The notes under the pieces were generated by a model. The model searched no databases and was not told the DNA's origin. It worked only from the letters and a program-made list of their open reading frames with translations. Shown here piece after piece: positions 27,347-37,444 of a DNA stretch of 64,000 nucleotides. Numbering within the stretch: position 1 is the stretch's first letter; the number at the start of each line of letters is the position of its first letter. The DNA comes from Prauserella cavernicola (GTDB lineage Bacteria; Actinomycetota; Actinomycetes; Mycobacteriales; Pseudonocardiaceae). Made by a program: the position numbers and the translations under genes. The DNA is taken from the NCBI RefSeq assembly GCF_016595675.1, contig NZ_JAENJH010000009.1:1-64000 (forward strand). The letters run 5' to 3'.

Positions 27347-27403
27347 CCGGCAGGCAGAATGGGTCCCCGCAACAGGACGGCGAGACAGCGAGGAGAACGG
27401 TCG

Positions 27404-28129
27404 GTGGCGGGAGCCCTACGTGGCGTGGTCGCACTGGACGGTCCATCGGGGACCGGCAAGACCACGGTCGCGCGCATGCTGGCCGCCGAGCTCGGCGCCG
27501 GCTTCCTCGACACGGGTGCGATGTACCGCGTGGTGGCCCTCTCGGCGCTGCGCGAGGGAGTCGACCTCGCCGACGCCGACGCCGTGGCCGCGCTGGCGAG
27601 AAGGGTCCAGGTCGGGATCGGCACCGATCCGGGACAGTCGCGGGTGCTGCTGGACGGTGACGACGTCGCCGAGCAGATCCGCACCGAGCCGGTGAACGTG
27701 GCCGTGTCGCCGGTGTCGGCGGTGCCCGAGGTGCGGCGGCTGCTGGTCGCGGGCCAGCGCGAGATCATCGCCTCCGTGCTCGGCTCGGCGGGCGGGATCG
27801 TGGTCGACGGCCGCGACATCGGCACCGTCGTCGCGCCGGACGCGCCACTGAAGGTCTTCCTCACGGCCTCGGCCGAGGTGCGGGCCGCGCGGCGCACCGC
27901 GCAGGACTCCGCGGCGGGCAGGCAGGCCGACACCGAGGCCGTGCTCGCCTCTGTGCGCCGTCGCGACGAGCTGGACACCACCCGGGCGACCTCGCCCCTG
28001 CGCGCCGCCGACGACGCCGAGGTGCTCGACACCTCCGAGCTCACGATCGACCAGGTCGTGGCGGCGCTGAGCGAGCTTGCGAAGCGGCGGGGCCTGCTGG
28101 GCGGGGAGTTCGTGGAGGCAGGCCGGTGA
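27404..28129 (+). CDS. cmk: Cytidylate kinase
   Basis: 241 aa. GTG at 27404 is chosen because AGGAG lies 8 nt upstream; an in-frame ATG at 27359 is less likely. The P-loop GPSGTGKTT is at residues 13-21, followed by FLDTGAMYRVVAL and VVDGRDIGTVVAPDA. It phosphorylates CMP and dCMP. It overlaps the acyltransferase gene by 4 bp in the usual cmk-plsC-der order. Confidence 0.94.
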   Translation: MAGALRGVVALDGPSGTGKTTVARMLAAELGAGFLDTGAMYRVVALSALREGVDLADADAVAALARRVQVGIGTDPGQSRVLLDGDDVAEQIRTEPVNVAVSPVSAVPEVRRLLVAGQREIIASVLGSAGGIVVDGRDIGTVVAPDAPLKVFLTASAEVRAARRTAQDSAAGRQADTEAVLASVRRRDELDTTRATSPLRAADDAEVLDTSELTIDQVVAALSELAKRRGLLGGEFVEAGR

Positions 28130-28770
28130 CCGGACTGCCCCAGGGCGCGCTGCCCTGGATGCACGACGTGGGCAGGGTGATCGCCCGGTATCTCTACCGG
28201 CCCGCCTTCCGCGTCCGTGTGCACGGGGCGTCCCGGGTGCCGCGTGACCGGGCCGTCGTGCTGGTCGCCAACCACAGCTCGATGATCGAGCCGCAGCTCA
28301 TCTTCGGAATGCTGCCGCGACGTTCGGTGTTCCTCGTCAAGGAGGAGCTGTTCTCCGGCCCGGCGGGCTGGGGGCTGCGACGCATCGGGCAGGTCCCGGT
28401 GAAGCGCGGCGCGCCCGACCGGGACGCACTACGGACGGTGACGGACGTCCTGCGGGCCGGGGGACTGGTCGGGGTGTTCCCCGAGGGCACCCGGGGCGCG
28501 GGGGACGTGGCGCAGGCTCAGCAGGGCGCGGCGTGGCTCGTGCGCGTGACGGGTGCGGTGGTGGTCCCGGTGGCCGTGCGCGGCACGCTGAACCCCGGCA
28601 CCCGCCGGCGGTTCCGGCCGGTGGTCGACGTGCTCGTCGGCGAACCGTTCACTGTGGACGTCGGCAAGGGCCGCGCCGCACTGGCCGAGGGCACCGAGCG
28701 CATCAGGGGAACGCTCGCCGCCCTCGTCGACAGGCTTGACAGGCAACGAGAAGAGAAGCAGAGACAATGA
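28126..28770 (+). CDS. PlsC-type 1-acyl-glycerol-3-phosphate acyltransferase, HX4E variant
   Basis: 214 aa. PlsC blocks are present in order: [11 protein letters not shown] (block I), [11 protein letters not shown] (II), [12 protein letters not shown] (III) and VVPVAVRGT (IV). Block I normally reads NHX4D; here the catalytic-dyad acid is Glu instead of Asp. The family acylates lysophosphatidic acid at the inner membrane face. It is sandwiched between cmk and der with 4-bp overlaps, a common actinobacterial arrangement. Confidence 0.9.
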
Positions 28771-30185
28771 CCGAAGCAGACGGCACCTGGTCCGACGAGT
28801 CGGAGTTCCACTCCCTCGACGCGCACGGCGCCGAGGGAGAGTCCGACGACGGCACCGAGGTCGCCCAGCCCGTGCTGGCCGTCGTCGGCAGGCCGAACGT
28901 CGGCAAGTCCACCCTGGTGAACCGCATCCTGGGGCGCCGGGAGGCCGTCGTGCAGGACGTGCCGGGCGTGACCCGCGACCGCATCGCCTACGACGCGCTG
29001 TGGAACGGCCGCCGGTTCACCGTCGTCGACACCGGCGGCTGGGAGCCCGGCGCCACGGGGCTGCAGGGCTCCGTGGCGGCGCAGGCCGAGCTGGCGATGT
29101 CCACTTCGGACGCCGTGCTGCTGGTCGTCGACGCCTCGGTGGGCGCGACGGCCACGGACGAGGCCGTCGCGAAGGTGCTGCGCCGCTCCAAGCGGCCCGT
29201 GCTGCTGGCCGCCAACAAGGTCGACGACGAGCGGTTGCTGGCCGAGACGGCGTCGCTGTGGTCGCTCGGCCTCGGCGAGCCGCACCCGGTGAGCGCGCTG
29301 CACGGCCGCAGCTCCGGCGACCTGCTCGACGAGATCGTCGGCTCGCTGCCGGAGGCCCCGAGGGACGCCGACCGGCTCGGTGGCGGACCGCGCCGCGTCG
29401 CGCTGGTCGGCAAGCCCAACGTCGGCAAGTCGAGCCTGCTCAACAAGCTCACCGGCGAGGAGCGGGCGGTGGTGGACTCGGTCGCGGGCACCACGGTCGA
29501 CCCGGTCGACTCGCTGGTGGAGCTCGACGGCCAGGCGTGGCGTTTCGTCGACACCGCGGGCCTGCGCAAGCGTGTGCAGACCGCGAGCGGCACGGAGTAC
29601 TACGCCTCGCTGCGCACCCGCACCGCGATCGACGCCGCCGAGGTGGTGATCGTGCTGCTCGACGCCAGTGAGCCGATCTCGGAGCAGGACCTGCGGGTGG
29701 TGACGCTCGTCGCCGAGGCGGGCCGCGCCCTCGTGCTGGCGTTCAACAAGTGGGACCTCGTGGACGAGGACCGGCGGTACCAGCTGGAGCGGGAGCTCGA
29801 CCGCGGCCTGGTGCGCGTGCCGTGGGCAGAGAAGGTCAACGTCTCCGCGCTCACCGGCCGTGCGGTGCGCAAGATGGCGCCCGCGCTGCGCACCGCGCTG
29901 TCGTCGTGGGACCAGCGCGTGCCGACGGGGCAGCTCAACGGCTGGCTCTCCGACCTCGTCGCGGCCACTCCGCCGCCGGTGCGCGGCGGCAAGCAGCCCA
30001 AGGTGCTCTTCGCGACGCAGGCCGGTATCCGGCCCCCGACTCTCGTGTTGTTCACCACAGGTTTTCTCGAGGCGGGCTACCGGCGCTTCGTCGAGCGCAA
30101 GTTCCGGGAACGCTTCGGCTTCCAGGGAACTCCCGTGCGGATCAACGTCCGCGTGCGCGAGAAGAAGCCGAGGAAGGCACGCTGA
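28767..30185 (+). CDS. der: GTPase Der (EngA)
   Basis: 472 aa with two tandem GTPase domains. The first P-loop is GRPNVGKST at residue 41, the second GKPNVGKSS at residue 215; each is followed by a G3 DTxG motif (DTGGW, DTAGL) and an N/T-K-x-D-type G4 (NKVDD, NKWDL). A KH-like C-terminal domain ends in a basic tail (KKPRKAR). It is needed for 50S subunit assembly. Confidence 0.95.
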
Positions 30186-30200
30186 CGAGCGGTCCCCGGC

Positions 30201-30228
30201 GTGACCGGCGGGCGGCGCGGCCGGTCAC
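30201..30228 (+). terminator. Hairpin after der
   Basis: GTGACCGGC and GCCGGTCAC form a perfect 9-bp stem with a 10-nt GC-rich loop, 15 bp after the der stop. There is no T-tract, as is common in this window, so it is called from stem and position only. Confidence 0.55.
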
Positions 30229-30300
30229 TCCGGGTATTGTGGACGGCCGTTGAACGGGCGCCTCATCCGGAGCCGGCCCGCACGAGCCGTGTGAGGCGTT

Positions 30301-33300
30301 GTGACACTCGCGATCGACACCGTCCCTGACCAGTCGCTGCCCGCCGATCCGGGCCGCGCGCTCTTCCTGACGGAGCCGGTGCGGGGCGAGCGGACCCTGC
30401 TGGACGTGCTCGGCGAGACGGCGGCGCGGCACCCCGGGGCCCCCGCGATCGACGACGGCACGGTCACGCTCAGCTATCGCACGCTCGCCGCCGAGATCGA
30501 GGTCGTGCGCGGCAAGCTCACCGCCGCCGGGATCGGCAGGGGCGATCGGGTCGGTGTCCGGATCTCCTCGGGTACCGCCGAGCTCTACGTCGCGATCCTC
30601 GGGGTGCTCTCGGTGGGCGCGGCCTACGTCCCCGTCGATGCCGACGACCCCGACGAGCGCGCCGAGCTGGTGTTCGCCGAGGCAGGAGTGTGCGCGGCCC
30701 TCGGCGACGGCGGAGCGCTCACCCCGCTCGACGCCCCGCACGGCGACCAGGGCGCTCCGAGGCCGTCGGACGACGCCTGGATCATCTTCACCTCCGGCTC
30801 CACCGGCAAGCCCAAGGGTGTGGCCGTCTCGCACGCCTCGGCCACGGCGTTCGTCGACGCCGAGGCCCGGCTGTTCCTCACCGAGGAGCCGATCGGCCCC
30901 GGCGACCGGGTGCTCGCGGGGCTGTCCGTGGCCTTCGACGCCTCGTGCGAGGAGATGTGGCTCGCGTGGCGCTACGGCGCCTGCCTGGTCCCGGCCCCGC
31001 GCGCGCTCGTGCGCACCGGCGTGGACCTGGGCCCGTGGCTCGTGGCCCAGCGCATCACCGTCGTGTCCACCGTGCCGACGCTGGCCGCGCTGTGGCCCGC
31101 CGACGCGCTCGAAGACGTCCGGCTGCTGATCTTCGGCGGCGAGGCGTGCCCTCCCGAGCTGGCCGAGCGCGTGGCCGTCGAGGGTCGCGAGGTGTGGAAC
31201 ACCTACGGCCCCACCGAGGCCACCGTCGTCGCGTGCGGAGCCCAGCTGACCGGTGAGGGCCCTGTCCGCATCGGGCTGCCGCTGGCCGGCTGGCAGCTCG
31301 CCGTCGTGGACGACGACGGCGAGCCGGTGCCGATGGGCGGCACCGGTGAGCTCGTCATCGGCGGCGTGGGCCTGGCCCGTTACCTGGACCCCGCCAAGGA
31401 CGCGGAGAAGTTCGCACCGCTGCCCTCGCTCGGCTGGGAGCGCGCCTACCGCAGCGGCGACCTCGTGCGCGCCGAGCCGGAGGGACTGCTGTTCCTCGGC
31501 AGGGCCGACGAGCAGATCAAGCTCGGCGGCAGGCGCATCGAGCTCGGCGAGGTGGACGCGGCGCTGCAGGCCCTGCCCTGCATCGCGGGCGGCGCGGCGG
31601 CGATCCGCACCACCAAGGCGGGCAACCAGATCCTCGTCGGCTACGTCGCGCCACAGACGGACGCGGAGTTCGACCGCGACGCGGCCGTGGCCAGGCTGCG
31701 CGAGCAGCTGCCCGCCGCGCTCGTGCCGTTGCTCGCCGTGGTCCCCGACCTGCCGACCCGCACGTCCGGCAAGGTCGACCGCGCGGCGCTGCCGTGGCCA
31801 CTGTCCACGGCGGACGAGGCCGTGGACGTGCTGTCGCCGACGGAGGCGTGGCTCGCCGAGATGTGGGGCGAGATCCTCGGCGTCCCGGTGACCGATCCCG
31901 GCGCCGATTTCTTCCGGCACGGCGGAGGCAGCCTCACCGCGGCCCAGTTCGTGTCGCGCATCCGCACGCGCCACCCCACCGTGTCGGTGACCGACGTCTA
32001 CCGGCAGCCGCGCCTCGGCGAGCTCGCCGCGACACTCGACGCGCTCGACGACACCGAGACCAGCCGCAGGGAGGTCACGCCGACCCGTCGCAAGACAGGC
32101 CTGGTGCAGGCGCTGCTGCTGGTGCCGCTGCTGACGCTGCCCGGTCTGCGCTGGAGCACCATGGCCGCGGCCGCGTCCACCCTGCTCGCGCAGTGGGGTG
32201 GCGTCGCCTGGGCGCCGACCGTGCCCTGGTGGCTGCTGGGCGCGGCCTGGCTCGTGCTGTTCAGTCCCGCTGGCCGCATCGCCATCGCGGCGGGCGGCGC
32301 ACGGCTGTTGCTGCGCGACCTCACTCCGGGCTCCCATCCCCGCGGCGGCAGGGTGCACCTGCGCCTGTGGACCGCCCAGCGGCTCGCCGAGCTCAGCGGG
32401 GCCAGCACCGTGGCGGGCGCGTCGTGGATGACGCACTACGCGCGGGCGCTCGGGGCCAAGGTGGGCAAGGACGTGGACCTGCACGCGCCGCCGCCGGTCA
32501 CCGGGCTGCTCAAGCTCGGCAGGGGCGCGGCCGTGGAACCCGAGACCGACCTCTCCGGGTACTGGGTCGACGGCGACGTCGTGCACATCGGCAAGATCCG
32601 GGTCGGGGCGGGAGCCCGCGTCGGCGCGCGCAGCACGCTGCTGCCTGGCGCCCGAGTCGGCAAGAACGCCGAGATCGCGGCGGGCTCGACCGTGCTCGGC
32701 GTGGTGCCCTCGGGCCAGCGCTGGGCGGGCTCGCCCGCGCGCCGCGACGGCAAGGCGGGCGGACAGTGGCCGTCGGACTCCCCGGCGCGCTCGCGCCGGT
32801 GGGCCACGGCCTACGGCGTCACGTCGGTGCTGCTCGGCCTGCTCCCGGCGATCGCCGCGATCCCCGCGCTCGTGCTGCTCGGTGCCGCCGTCGCCGACGC
32901 GGCCGGACCGGGTGCGGCACTCGGAGCTGCGCTGGTGAGCGTCCCGCTGGCCACCGTGATCTACGTCGGGACCTACGCACTGCTCGTGCTGGGCGGGGTG
33001 CGCGCGCTGGGCATCGGCCTGCGTGAGGGCTACCACCCCGTGCACAGCAGGGGAGCGTGGCAGGTGTGGGCCACCGAGCGGCTGATGGACTCGGCCAGGG
33101 TGGTGCTCTTCCCGCTCTACGCCAGCCTGTTCACGCCCGTGTGGCTGCGGCTGCTCGGCGCGAGGGTGGGCCGCGGCGTCGAGGCCTCCACCGTGCTCGC
33201 GCTGCCCAAGATGACCAAGATCGACAGCGGCGCCTTCCTCGCCGACGACACCATGGTGGCCACCTACGAACTGGGCCACGGCTGGTTGCACGTCGCTCCG

Positions 33301-34176
33301 GCGCGCATCGGCAAGCAGGCGTTCCTCGGCAACTCCGGGATGACGGCCGCGGGCCGGTCGGTGCCCAAGCGCGGGCTGGTCGGGGTGCTGTCGTCGACGC
33401 CGGCGAAGGCGAAGAAGGGCTCGTCCTGGCTGGGGATGCCGCCGATGCCGCTGCGCCGCTCGGTGGAGGACGCCGACACCAGCAGGACGTTCGACCCGCC
33501 GCGACGGCTGCGGCTCGCCAGGGCGGCCGTGGAGCTGTGCCGCATCGTGCCGGTGATGTGCGGTGTCGCGCTCGCCGTGCTGGTCGCCGCCGCGTTCATC
33601 GCGCTGATCTCGGCACTGGGCGTCGTCGTGGCCGCGCTGGTCTCCGGCGCGGTGCTGTTCACCGCGGGCGTGCTCGCCGCGGCGCTCGCCACGGCCGCGA
33701 AGTGGTCGCTGGCGGGCAGTTTCCGGGCCACCGAACGTCCACTGTGGAGCTCGTTCGTGTGGCGGGCCGAGCTGGCCGACACCTTCGTGGAGACGCTGGC
33801 CGTGCCGTGGTTCGTCGACTCCGTCACCGGCACCCCGCTGCTGCCCGCCTGGCTGCGGACCATGGGCGCGCGCATCGGCAGGGGCGTGTGGCTGGAGACC
33901 TACTGGCTGCCCGAGTCGGATCTGGTGCGGATCGGGGACGGAGCCACGGTGAACCGGGGCTGTGTGGTGCAGACCCACCTGTTCCATGATCGGATCATGA
34001 GCATGGACACCGTGGTGATCGACGACGGCGCGACACTCGGCCCGCACGGCATCGTGCTGCCGGGGGCCAGCATCGGCGCCCGCACGACCATCGGCCCCGG
34101 CTCGCTGGTGACCAGGGGCGACGAGGTTCCCGCCGACACGCGGTGGCTGGGCAACGCCATCGCGACCTGGCAGTGA
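30301..34176 (+). CDS. Pls-like membrane NRPS (A-T-TM-tandem C-terminal domains), epsilon-poly-amino-acid synthetase family
   Basis: 1291 aa. An adenylation domain (~30-500) shows IIFTSGSTGKPKG at residue ~161, NTYGPTEATV at ~300, YRSGDLV at ~383 and the catalytic Lys491 in SGKVDR. A carrier domain follows with the pantetheine serine 544 in DFFRHGGGSL. The rest has about six transmembrane helices in three pairs (near 600-660, 835-900, 1080-1130), separating three related domains, of which the first and last show hexapeptide left-handed beta-helix turns (VRIGDGATVNRGCVV). No condensation or thioesterase domain is present. This is the architecture of epsilon-poly-L-lysine synthetase (Pls), which links lysines through the side-chain amine without a template. 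The pocket residues read by eye (D213 A214 E217 S256 I277 G279 T301 V309 V310 K491) suggest a basic amino acid. It overlaps the downstream M1 peptidase by 4 bp. The actual product is not known. Confidence 0.88.
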   Translation: MTLAIDTVPDQSLPADPGRALFLTEPVRGERTLLDVLGETAARHPGAPAIDDGTVTLSYRTLAAEIEVVRGKLTAAGIGRGDRVGVRISSGTAELYVAILGVLSVGAAYVPVDADDPDERAELVFAEAGVCAALGDGGALTPLDAPHGDQGAPRPSDDAWIIFTSGSTGKPKGVAVSHASATAFVDAEARLFLTEEPIGPGDRVLAGLSVAFDASCEEMWLAWRYGACLVPAPRALVRTGVDLGPWLVAQRITVVSTVPTLAALWPADALEDVRLLIFGGEACPPELAERVAVEGREVWNTYGPTEATVVACGAQLTGEGPVRIGLPLAGWQLAVVDDDGEPVPMGGTGELVIGGVGLARYLDPAKDAEKFAPLPSLGWERAYRSGDLVRAEPEGLLFLGRADEQIKLGGRRIELGEVDAALQALPCIAGGAAAIRTTKAGNQILVGYVAPQTDAEFDRDAAVARLREQLPAALVPLLAVVPDLPTRTSGKVDRAALPWPLSTADEAVDVLSPTEAWLAEMWGEILGVPVTDPGADFFRHGGGSLTAAQFVSRIRTRHPTVSVTDVYRQPRLGELAATLDALDDTETSRREVTPTRRKTGLVQALLLVPLLTLPGLRWSTMAAAASTLLAQWGGVAWAPTVPWWLLGAAWLVLFSPAGRIAIAAGGARLLLRDLTPGSHPRGGRVHLRLWTAQRLAELSGASTVAGASWMTHYARALGAKVGKDVDLHAPPPVTGLLKLGRGAAVEPETDLSGYWVDGDVVHIGKIRVGAGARVGARSTLLPGARVGKNAEIAAGSTVLGVVPSGQRWAGSPARRDGKAGGQWPSDSPARSRRWATAYGVTSVLLGLLPAIAAIPALVLLGAAVADAAGPGAALGAALVSVPLATVIYVGTYALLVLGGVRALGIGLREGYHPVHSRGAWQVWATERLMDSARVVLFPLYASLFTPVWLRLLGARVGRGVEASTVLALPKMTKIDSGAFLADDTMVATYELGHGWLHVAPARIGKQAFLGNSGMTAAGRSVPKRGLVGVLSSTPAKAKKGSSWLGMPPMPLRRSVEDADTSRTFDPPRRLRLARAAVELCRIVPVMCGVALAVLVAAAFIALISALGVVVAALVSGAVLFTAGVLAAALATAAKWSLAGSFRATERPLWSSFVWRAELADTFVETLAVPWFVDSVTGTPLLPAWLRTMGARIGRGVWLETYWLPESDLVRIGDGATVNRGCVVQTHLFHDRIMSMDTVVIDDGATLGPHGIVLPGASIGARTTIGPGSLVTRGDEVPADTRWLGNAIATWQ

Positions 34177-35486
34177 GGGCAGTCCCGTCGCCCGGCGCCA
34201 CGACGTCGGGCGACTCCTACCTGCCCGCGCACGGCAACGGCGGCTACCGGGTGGGCCACTACGACCTCGAGCTGGACTACCGGCTCGTGTCGAACCGCCT
34301 CGCCGCCAAGGCCCGCATCAGCGCCGTGGCCACCCAGGCACTGTCCCGGTTCAGCCTCGACCTCGCCGACTTCAAGGTCAGCAGGGTGCTCGTGGACGGC
34401 CGCGCCGCGCGCTACGTCCGGCGAGGGCACAAGCTCACCGTCACCCCGGCGCGCTCGATCGCCGAGGGCTTCGAGTTCACCGTCGAGGTGCGCTACTCGG
34501 GCAACCCGAAGCCGCTGCGCTCACCGCAGTGGGGCGACCTCGGCTGGGACGAGCTGACCGACGGCGCGCTCGTCGCGGCCCAGCCCTTCGGTGCGCCGTC
34601 GTGGTTCCCGTGTGACGACCACCCCGCCGCCAAGGCCACCTACCGCGTCAGCGTGGCCACGTCGTCGCCGTACACGGTGCTCGTGACGGGCTCGCCGGTG
34701 TCGCGCAAGCGCGGCGCCAGCACCACCACGTGGGTGTACGAGCAGCGCGTGCCGACGGCCACGTACCTGATGAGCGTGCAGATCGGCCGCTACGTCGAGT
34801 TCGCGCCGGGGGAGAGGCAGCGCGTCGCGGTGCCCGTGGAGCTCAGGGCGCGCGCGGAGGCCGACTTCGCGGTGCAGCCGCGCATGGTCAGGGTGCTCGA
34901 GGACCTCTTCGGGCCCTACCCGTTCGCCGAGTACGTCGTGGTGGTCACCGGCGACGAGCTCGACGATCCCGTCGAGGCGCAGGGAATGGCCGTGTTCGGT
35001 GCCAACCACGTCGACGGCGTCGGAACGCACGAGCGGCTGGTGGTGCACGAGCTGGCGCACCAGTGGTTCGGCAACAGCCTCACGGTGGCCGACTGGCGCC
35101 ACATCTGGCTCAACGAGGGCTTCGCGACCTACGCGGAGTGGCTGTGGTCGGAGGCCTCCGGCGGAGCACCGGCGAGCAGGCACGCCAGGGACTGGCACCG
35201 CGTCGTCGCGGCTGCTCCCGCTGATCTCAGCGTCGCCGACCCCGGTGTGCGCAGGATGTTCGACCAGCGCGTCTACAAACGGGGTGCGCTCACTCTGCAC
35301 GCGTTGCGCACCGAGCTCGGCGACCGCGCGTTCTTCGCGCTCGTCAGGGACTGGACGGACACGTACCGGCACGGCACGGTCACCACCGAGGCGTTCACGG
35401 CGCTGGCCGCCCGGCACGCGGGCCGCTCGCTCGACGGCTTCTTCGCGTCGTGGCTGACGGGCACCGCGCTGCCCGCGCTGCGCTAG
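34173..35486 (+). CDS. M1-family zinc metallopeptidase coupled to the Pls-like synthetase
   Basis: 437 aa. The zinc site HELAHQW gives His292, Glu293 and His296, with the third ligand Glu315 in WLNEGFA, i.e. HEXXH-X18-E of family M1. The N-terminal beta-domain is present, but the C-terminal ARM-like domain of full-size aminopeptidase N is missing. The GXMEN motif that anchors the substrate N-terminus is replaced by QGMAVFG. No signal peptide is visible. The GTG start overlaps the synthetase stop (GTGA). From memory, the epsilon-poly-lysine degrading enzyme of Streptomyces albulus is also an M1-type zinc aminopeptidase, so this gene may trim or protect against the polymer; that is an inference. 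Its stop overlaps the convergent tetR stop. Confidence 0.9.
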   Translation: MRAVPSPGATTSGDSYLPAHGNGGYRVGHYDLELDYRLVSNRLAAKARISAVATQALSRFSLDLADFKVSRVLVDGRAARYVRRGHKLTVTPARSIAEGFEFTVEVRYSGNPKPLRSPQWGDLGWDELTDGALVAAQPFGAPSWFPCDDHPAAKATYRVSVATSSPYTVLVTGSPVSRKRGASTTTWVYEQRVPTATYLMSVQIGRYVEFAPGERQRVAVPVELRARAEADFAVQPRMVRVLEDLFGPYPFAEYVVVVTGDELDDPVEAQGMAVFGANHVDGVGTHERLVVHELAHQWFGNSLTVADWRHIWLNEGFATYAEWLWSEASGGAPASRHARDWHRVVAAAPADLSVADPGVRRMFDQRVYKRGALTLHALRTELGDRAFFALVRDWTDTYRHGTVTTEAFTALAARHAGRSLDGFFASWLTGTALPALR

Positions 35487-36103
35487 GGGCCGGTGAGGAT
35501 CGCCGTGGCGATGCGGACGATCTCGGCGATCACGTCGTCGATCGGGATCTGGTACGCGCCCAGCGCCCAGTGGTACACGAGCTCGTTGACGGCACCGATG
35601 AGCGCGACCGCGCTCAGGTGGAAGTCCCGCGGCACGGCCTCCCCGCGCGCGACCGCGCGGCGCGCCTCGACGACGAGGAACGTCACCCACCGCTCGCGCC
35701 ACGCGAGCCGGTGGCGCTCCACGGCGTCGCTGACCCCCACGATCTCCACATAGGACAGCCGCGCCCAGCGCGGATCTTGCGCCGTCGTGGTGAGGTAGGC
35801 CCGCACGGCGAGCTCGATCCGCGCGGCCAGCGCCTCGTTCTCCGCCGAGGCGAACGCGTCGGTGACCGCCCGCATCGCGCGCTCCAGCACGCGATTGTGC
35901 AGAGTTGTCAGCAGATCCTCGCGTCCGGTGAACTCCTCGTAGAAGTTGCGGGTGGACACTCCGGCCGCCGAGCACAGCCGCTCGATCGACGTGGCGACGT
36001 AGCCCTCGGTGCCGAACAGTTCCAGCCCGGCGTCCATCAGTCGCTCTCTGCGCTCTGCTCTGCGATCGGCCGCCGTCCGGCCACCGTAGACGCGATCGGC
36101 CAT
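35483..36103 (-). CDS. TetR-family transcriptional regulator
   Basis: 206 aa. The N-terminal helix-turn-helix is RRERLMDAGLELFGTEGYVATSIERLCSAAGVSTRNFYEEF in outline (residues ~18-60). The C-terminal ligand domain is not family-specific to the eye. It is convergent with the M1 gene (3-bp stop overlap) and lies 9 bp downstream of the ROK gene on the same strand, so it could be the second gene of a ROK-tetR operon. Target unknown. Confidence 0.9.
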   Translation of the reverse strand: MADRVYGGRTAADRRAERRERLMDAGLELFGTEGYVATSIERLCSAAGVSTRNFYEEFTGREDLLTTLHNRVLERAMRAVTDAFASAENEALAARIELAVRAYLTTTAQDPRWARLSYVEIVGVSDAVERHRLAWRERWVTFLVVEARRAVARGEAVPRDFHLSAVALIGAVNELVYHWALGAYQIPIDDVIAEIVRIATAILTGP

Positions 36104-36112
36104 TCGTTCAGG

Positions 36113-37444
36113 CTAGAGCAGCGGAGTCCGCAATGGGACGTCCACGAGTTCCGGTGCGCCAGCCGGAGATCCCGCCACGACCCAGTGAGCCAGTCGCTCC
36201 GGCGCGAAGAGCTCGTCGATGACCATGAACGCCGCGCCGACGACGCCCGCGGTGTCACTGAGCGAAGAACGAGCGATCCGCAGCTCGCGCGTGGCCAACG
36301 GCAGCGAACGCCGGTACACGGACTCGCGCACGGCGGCCAGCAACAGATCACCGGCGTCGGCCACTCCGCCGCCGATGATGACGAGTGCGGGATTGTAAAA
36401 ACTCACGAGCGTCGCGAGCAGGCTGCCGATCAGTCTGCCCGCCCGCGTGAGCAGTTCCACCGACACGCGGTCGCCGCTCTGGGCGGCGCGTGAGATGTCG
36501 GCCGCGGTGATGGTGCCGGCGGAGTCGAGGACACCGGCCAGGAACTCGCTGCGGCCTTCCTTCGCCGCGTCGAGCCCGTCGCGCGCCAGCGCCGCGCCGC
36601 CCGCGTAGGCCTCGAGACAGCCGGTGTTGCCGCAGCGGCACACGACGGTCGCCTCGTCGGCCACAGCGGCGTGGCCGATGTCGCCGGCGCAGCCCTGGCT
36701 GCCCCGGTGCAGCCGTCCGCCGGACACGAGGCCCGCGCCGATGCCGGTGCCGATCTTGACGTAGAGGATGTCGCTCTGGCCCTTGGCCGTTCCGGCGCGC
36801 AGCTCGCCGAGCGCCATCGTGTTGACCTCGTTGTCGACCCACACCGGCGCGCCGAAGCGGGCGGTGAGCCGGTCGCGCACGGGGTGGCCGTCCCAGCCGG
36901 GCATGATCGGCGGCGCGCTGGGCCGTCCAGTCGCGAACTCGACGGGACCGGGCAGTCCGATCCCGATGCCCCACACGGCCACGTCGCCGTGCTCGGCGCG
37001 CACGTCGTCGAGCAGGGTGTCGAACAGTGCCTCCACCCGGTCGAGCACGGGTTCGGGGCCGAGTGCGATGTCGGTGGGTTCCTCGCGTTCCGCGAGCACG
37101 GTTCCGGCGAGGTCGGTGACGCCCGCGGCGATGCTGGTGGCGCCCAGCTCCGCGGCGAGCACGACGCCAGCCGTGGCACGGAACCGCAGTTCCCTGGGCG
37201 CGCGGCCGCCGCTGGAGGGACCGAGGGCGCCCTCCTCCATGAGTCCGCATTCGGTGAGCTGGTTGACGCGCTGGGTCACGACCGTGCGGCCGAGCCCGGA
37301 ATGCCTGCCGATCTCGGGCCGGGTCCTGGCCGCGCCGGAACGGACGAGATCGAGCACCGTGGTGAGGCTGTCGACGTGCTCAGGGGTCAGTGCGCCCTGG
37401 TTGCGTGGTGTCTTCGGCTCCTGCACGCGAACATCTTCCACCAC
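36113..37444 (-). CDS. ROK-family transcriptional regulator/sugar kinase homologue
   Basis: 443 aa from the first of two adjacent GTG codons; the start could be a few codons later. An N-terminal winged helix (residues ~20-75, GRHSGLGRTVVTQRVNQL) is followed by an ASKHA kinase-like domain with GIGIGLPGPVE and the ROK zinc motif CRCGNTGCLE. Such NagC/XylR-type proteins usually repress sugar catabolism genes and respond to a sugar or sugar phosphate. No sugar operon is adjacent, so the ligand is unknown. Confidence 0.9.
   Translation of the reverse strand: MVEDVRVQEPKTPRNQGALTPEHVDSLTTVLDLVRSGAARTRPEIGRHSGLGRTVVTQRVNQLTECGLMEEGALGPSSGGRAPRELRFRATAGVVLAAELGATSIAAGVTDLAGTVLAEREEPTDIALGPEPVLDRVEALFDTLLDDVRAEHGDVAVWGIGIGLPGPVEFATGRPSAPPIMPGWDGHPVRDRLTARFGAPVWVDNEVNTMALGELRAGTAKGQSDILYVKIGTGIGAGLVSGGRLHRGSQGCAGDIGHAAVADEATVVCRCGNTGCLEAYAGGAALARDGLDAAKEGRSEFLAGVLDSAGTITAADISRAAQSGDRVSVELLTRAGRLIGSLLATLVSFYNPALVIIGGGVADAGDLLLAAVRESVYRRSLPLATRELRIARSSLSDTAGVVGAAFMVIDELFAPERLAHWVVAGSPAGAPELVDVPLRTPLL

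Follow-up and report, generated by a model that had tools for sequence, protein, structure and literature searches.

The stretch of DNA analysed here, 64,000 nucleotides from Prauserella cavernicola (hereafter the window), carries two overlapping genes that we interpret, with a probability of about 0.92, as a pls–pldII operon for making and hydrolysing epsilon-poly-L-lysine, a natural antimicrobial and food preservative. By analogy with characterised relatives, the adenylation (A) domain of the synthetase would activate L-lysine as lysyl-AMP and then load the carrier arm, and the membrane-bound tandem C-terminal domains would link the lysines by isopeptide bonds between alpha-carboxyl and epsilon-amino groups to yield epsilon-poly-L-lysine; the M1 zinc peptidase, probably translated by coupling from its overlapping start, would hydrolyse the polymer for self-protection and turnover. 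Every feature of such an operon that can be tested in the sequence is present except for an export signal on the peptidase, the number of membrane helices aside (seven segments by hydropathy versus six). The gene pair itself is an ordinary, already characterised two-gene system, and the possible novelty lies in where the degrading enzyme works.

The window synthetase belongs to the Pls/PosA family. Its residues 602–1286 match TIGR02353, the Pls/PosA terminal-domain model, over its full length with 735.5 bits against a curated cut-off of 423.1, and its best match in the Protein Data Bank (PDB) is 7wew, an epsilon-poly-L-lysine synthase (688 bits). Pfam searches at E ≤ 0.001 identified AMP-binding (residues 39–360), PP-binding (517–579) and Hexapep (best stretch 766–799) domains and no condensation or thioesterase domain, with Hexapep_2 matching below threshold; Ser544 is the serine of an HGGGSL motif that begins at residue 540. 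These matches, the open reading frame and the motif positions agree with an original prediction, made from the letters and translations alone, of a 1291-residue protein with an A domain, a carrier serine at 544 and neither a condensation nor a thioesterase domain. The prediction had also likened the architecture to that of epsilon-poly-L-lysine synthetase, and when the C-terminal domains were compared with Pls the likeness held, both to the TIGR02353 model and to a Streptomyces synthetase (L220) with 52% identity in this region and an A domain 93% identical to 7wew. Named relatives among the matches listed include Prauserella endophytica (85%, best segment) and P. salsuginis (78%). After residue 580, hydropathy gives seven candidate membrane segments (598–616, 645–663, 843–861, 879–897, 934–952, 1085–1103 and 1108–1126), a number compatible with the roughly six helices of the original prediction, though hydropathy alone does not tell which of them is not a transmembrane helix.

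The substrate of the window A domain is predicted to be L-lysine, since all ten of its pocket residues are the same as those of 7wew. At ten positions chosen by what we take to be the Stachelhaus scheme, script extraction gave D213, A214, E217, S256, I277, G279, T301, V309, V310 and K491 (DAESIGTVVK), and the same string was read off the printed alignment of 7wew. Lysine-activating enzymes of the Pls/PosA group are reported to have alanine at the second pocket position, with methionine in PosA and phenylalanine in a diaminopropionate enzyme (PMC10522769). PosA, the delta-poly-L-ornithine synthetase of Acinetobacter baumannii, shares the family and the general chemistry, but has the pocket DMEHNGTVSK, and posA, unlike the window pair, is described as a single-gene operon with no obvious cotranscribed neighbours (PMC10522769). 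A Pls-like subgroup in our family sample (L127–L131, scoring under the TIGR02353 cut-off) has the pocket DSECYGGVTK; an enzyme from Bdellovibrionales that is modestly active on arginine is reported to have the same one (PMC10522769).

In the family sample, only synthetases with the lysine pocket code have an M1 gene behind them. The family survey covered 120 genomes, 79 of which have a TIGR02353 match above the curated cut-off and all of which have some M1 match; we used the curated cut-off because a search at E ≤ 0.001 also matched 13 of 14 control genomes, one of them over that cut-off. The sample consists of the rows over the cut-off, minus the window, plus seven below it (L127–L131, L133 and L134); the script found no synthetase open reading frame at L134, and L005 and L132 represent a single locus, which enters the counts one time. 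Pockets were read at each of the 128 distinct loci (window excluded), and the window M1 served as the query for M1 genes within 1500 bases (E ≤ 1e-10), limits that would let a highly divergent peptidase escape. An M1 gene lies behind 59 of the 69 lysine-code loci and none of the 59 others, of which 44 have other pocket readings (four look misaligned or unrelated) and 15 have no readable A domain. Two of the 69 and three of the 59 are too near a contig edge; at loci with at least 900 bases downstream the comparison is 59/67 versus 0/56 (Fisher p 1e-26, computed over related genomes that are not independent samples). The pair is widespread, with at least 590 confirmed synthetase relatives in a scan of named genomes. 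Each of the best 80 of these (six are also in the family sample) has both the lysine code and an M1 gene, a figure biased to close relatives by that choice. We conclude that the pairing of pls with an M1 gene is no chance event.

These counts also bear on the identity of the product. Synthetases for other cationic isopeptides share the architecture described above (PMC8117764, PMC10522769), and the window synthetase might therefore make a polymer of diaminobutyrate, diaminopropionate, ornithine or beta-lysine, with an M1 enzyme specific for that polymer. We regard this as highly improbable in view of the complete pocket identity with 7wew, the lack of an M1 gene at every family locus with a different pocket or no readable A domain, and the different gene context reported for three other isopeptide synthetases (PMC8117764).

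It is similarly very unlikely that the M1 enzyme is a general aminopeptidase for ordinary peptides that lies behind pls by accident, even though catalytic motifs alone leave the substrate unfixed and the genome holds two other two-domain M1 genes. The linkage of M1 to lysine-code pls recurs in many genera, and the in-frame 4-nt overlap of the two genes is frequent, being present at 39 of the best 80 named loci and 40 of the 59 family loci. Moreover, in a midpoint-rooted tree of M1 proteins three paralogues that do not adjoin pls (L234 and L235 from the window genome, and L216 from Streptomyces fructofermentans) group together with support of 100/98, apart from the pls-linked M1s. The window M1 is 38% and 33% identical to the two paralogues of its own genome, and 42–45% identical (over 436 columns) to the M1s of four S. 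albulus-like Streptomyces loci (L220, L221, L223 and L224).

The catalytic residues of the peptidase are intact. HELAH begins at residue 292 and NEGFATYAE at residue 314, which places His292, Glu293, His296 and Glu315 where the original prediction had them, and the HEXXH-18-E pattern is present in 149 of 149 pls-linked relatives; the predicted overlap of the synthetase stop with the M1 start is likewise found in the sequence, as the shared GTGA. Long PepN-type M1 aminopeptidases carry a GXMEN-type motif and run to some 850 residues or more; the window M1, with 437 residues and an ExQ site, is not one of them. Its best PDB match is 6a8z (34% identity over 415 columns), which we take to be M1dr, a two-domain M1 peptidase of Deinococcus; 6a8z is of similar length and, like the window M1, has no GXMEN, but unlike it has no ExQ at the aligned place.

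The loss of GXMEN had been noted in the original prediction as a possible reflection of an isopeptide substrate, and here the observation and its suggested meaning part company. GXMEN is indeed absent from the window M1, and among aligned pls-linked M1s, window included, E268 is present in 150/150 and Q270 in 146/150. However, the three paralogues that do not adjoin pls also lack GXMEN and have E-x-Q at this place (LENQT in L234, LETQG in L235 and LETQT in L216), and we therefore reject the motif difference as a mark of isopeptide specificity; as it is not confined to pls-linked enzymes, it is no evidence of isopeptide cleavage. Two long M1s encoded by the window genome instead read GAMEN (L236, an 872-aa frame) and GGMEH (L237, a 905-aa frame).

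The same two-gene layout is reported for the industrial producer, Streptomyces albulus, where pldII adjoins pls with a 4-bp overlap in one operon (PMC4361855), and pldII, a 1404-bp open reading frame, encodes the major degrading enzyme, located outside the membrane (PMC9223678). We fetched seven of the 16 highest-scoring Streptomyces rows (73–93% identical to 7wew), and S. albulus PldII is represented here by the relatives L220–L225; across 295 Streptomyces-group genomes, no A domain comes closer to 7wew than 93% identity. In L220–L222, whose A domains are 88–93% identical to 7wew, the M1 open reading frame is exactly 1404 bp and has the 4-nt overlap. The window agrees with S. albulus in domain order, lysine pocket, gene order and overlap. 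A pls–peptidase operon is also described for Corynebacterium variabile, another lineage, which we set beside the window by its published description; its pls, placed in Streptomyces coelicolor, gives epsilon-poly-L-lysine of 26–35 residues (PMC8117764). Both systems support the original proposal that the two genes make and trim a homopolymer of a basic amino acid. A search of the open-access literature for papers that mention a poly-L-lysine synthetase, pls and a downstream peptidase M1 all together found none.

Several observations weigh against reading the window locus as a pls–pldII operon of this kind. Ten of the 69 lysine-code family loci have no M1 behind them, only two of these being cut by a contig end; nine have A domains 63–72% identical to that of the window (one contig-cut), and the tenth, also cut, is 82% identical. 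Six of the seven fetched S. albulus-like loci have the M1 gene and one, L229, does not, so that the peptidase is not strictly needed. No epsilon-poly-L-lysine was detectable from C. variabile itself, nor was any found in Corynebacterium glutamicum carrying the C. variabile pls, in which the protein was detected (PMC8117764), and the presence of pls is thus no guarantee of product. The trees also separate the window from S. albulus: in the M1 tree a window-like group of 20 rows (100/99) and an S. albulus-like group of six rows (100/100) are united, together with L082, only by a weak fork (84/78), and in a synthetase tree made by a quick method the window belongs to a group of 20 rows that does not include the S. 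albulus-like ones. Identity to L220 is 69% for the A domain and 42% for PldII. Because the window M1 sits in a separate group and has no leader, it might act on another substrate or in another place than the S. albulus-like enzyme, and we class it as a PldII homologue rather than as an exported PldII.

Eight of the lysine-code loci lack an M1 gene despite having room for one (L084, L088, L089, L095, L101, L103, L108 and L126, with 63–72% A-domain identity), and in seven of these eight genomes, that of L101 being the exception, another lysine-code copy does have an M1. One Streptomyces-group genome (G362) holds both kinds of synthetase gene, an S. albulus-like pls without M1 (L229) and a window-like one (L230) whose M1 has no leader.

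The absence of an export leader sets the window peptidase apart from the S. albulus-like M1s. Leaders were scored with a scripted hydropathy threshold, rather than a signal-peptide program, in the region upstream of the start of the conserved domain; for the three non-adjacent paralogues the leader was taken from the open frame, with no start chosen. By this threshold the window M1 has no hydrophobic leader. Its start was taken as the GTG at 34173, and an earlier in-frame GTG at 34143 would add only the hydrophilic MAGQRHRDLA. In contrast, all six S. albulus-like M1s examined have a hydrophobic, twin-arginine-like leader, each preceded by two adjacent arginines, and a hydrophobic leader is also present in 3/3 of the paralogues. 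Leaders are found at one of the best 80 named loci (L204, from a metagenome-assembled genome, where the reading is overlong and the leader in our judgement an artefact), at one of the 59 family loci (L082, lipoprotein-like, with a synthetase outside the window clade) and at none of four further Streptomyces loci. Named and family partners together make 139 records, 133 of them distinct, of which two have a leader, one being the probable artefact. The difference between S. albulus-like and other M1 partners may not have been reported before; no paper treating PldII of poly-L-lysine together with a signal peptide was found in the open-access literature.

As the leader is missing, the window M1 may be a cytosolic enzyme and not one that acts outside the membrane. 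We tentatively suggest that there are two kinds of pls–pldII operon, an S. albulus-like kind in which an exported enzyme trims the secreted polymer, and the widespread kind seen here, in which a cytosolic enzyme would recycle the polymer inside the cell or destroy it before it leaks; we give this less than an even chance. To our knowledge few actinomycetes are known as epsilon-poly-lysine producers, and such a split, if true, could help to explain why pls has many carriers and few known producers. A rival reading, in which the operon is intact but nothing is secreted because leaderless PldII destroys the chain in the cell and the polymer is transient and internal, seems unlikely. It would fit the finding that the window M1, like almost every sampled partner that is not S. 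albulus-like, has no leader, and also the failure to detect polymer from C. variabile, but the location of PldII is only predicted, many operons are silent for want of expression, and the published account reports that C. variabile Pls was itself undetected by proteomics and attributes the difficulty to regulation and promoter (PMC8117764). Since C. glutamicum with pls also gave no detectable product, the Corynebacterium negatives do not settle where the enzyme acts. Through the leader difference it can be tested in a simple way whether the polymer is retained or recycled within the cells of many carriers.

Table 1. Coordinates of the pls–pldII locus and its parts in the window.
Feature	Position	Strand	Evidence
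pls, predicted epsilon-poly-L-lysine synthetase, GTG start, TGA stop, 1291 aa	30301..34176	+	TIGR02353, Pfam, PDB match 7wew
Adenylation domain, about aa 39–500	30415..31800	+	Pfam AMP-binding; 7wew alignment over 12–504; motif positions
Carrier (PP-binding) domain, aa 517–579, Ser544	31849..32037	+	PF00550; motif position
Pls-type terminal region, aa 602–1286, acyltransferase-like stretches parted by membrane segments	32104..34158	+	TIGR02353, Hexapep, hydropathy
GTGA, 4-nt stop/start overlap, putative translational coupling	34173..34176	+	Sequence
pldII-like two-domain M1 metallopeptidase of 437 aa without a visible export leader	34173..35486	+	Pfam M1 and M1_N; PDB 6a8z; leader test; tree
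E268-A-Q270 (ExQ) in place of GXMEN	34974..34982	+	Alignment of pls-linked M1s; paralogue comparison
HELAH zinc-binding motif (His292, Glu293, His296; third ligand Glu315)	35046..35060	+	Motif positions

A scan of 29900–36200 for promoters and terminators found nothing. Directly upstream of pls (27359–30185) are cytidylate kinase-like and acyltransferase-like genes, labelled by eye, and Der; Der lies upstream within 6 kb of pls in eight of the best 80 named loci, and these eight all belong to Amycolatopsis or Prauserella. A TetR-type regulator (35483–36103, minus strand) is convergent with the M1 gene, and similar proteins (E ≤ 1e-20) occur at two of the best 80 named loci. A conserved third gene was considered and rejected, as no other cluster of open frames (150 aa or longer, up to about 6 kb away) extends to more than 11 of the best 80 named loci.

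In the region L132:2736–11644 the same genome contains a second Pls-type gene (802 bits to TIGR02353), with a carrier and terminal region and no A domain. Its neighbours are an A–carrier–thioesterase nonribosomal peptide synthetase, homologues of SbnA and SbnB (2,3-diaminopropionate synthesis) and a TauD-type oxygenase, and the product of this locus is probably a different, diaminopropionate-derived one.

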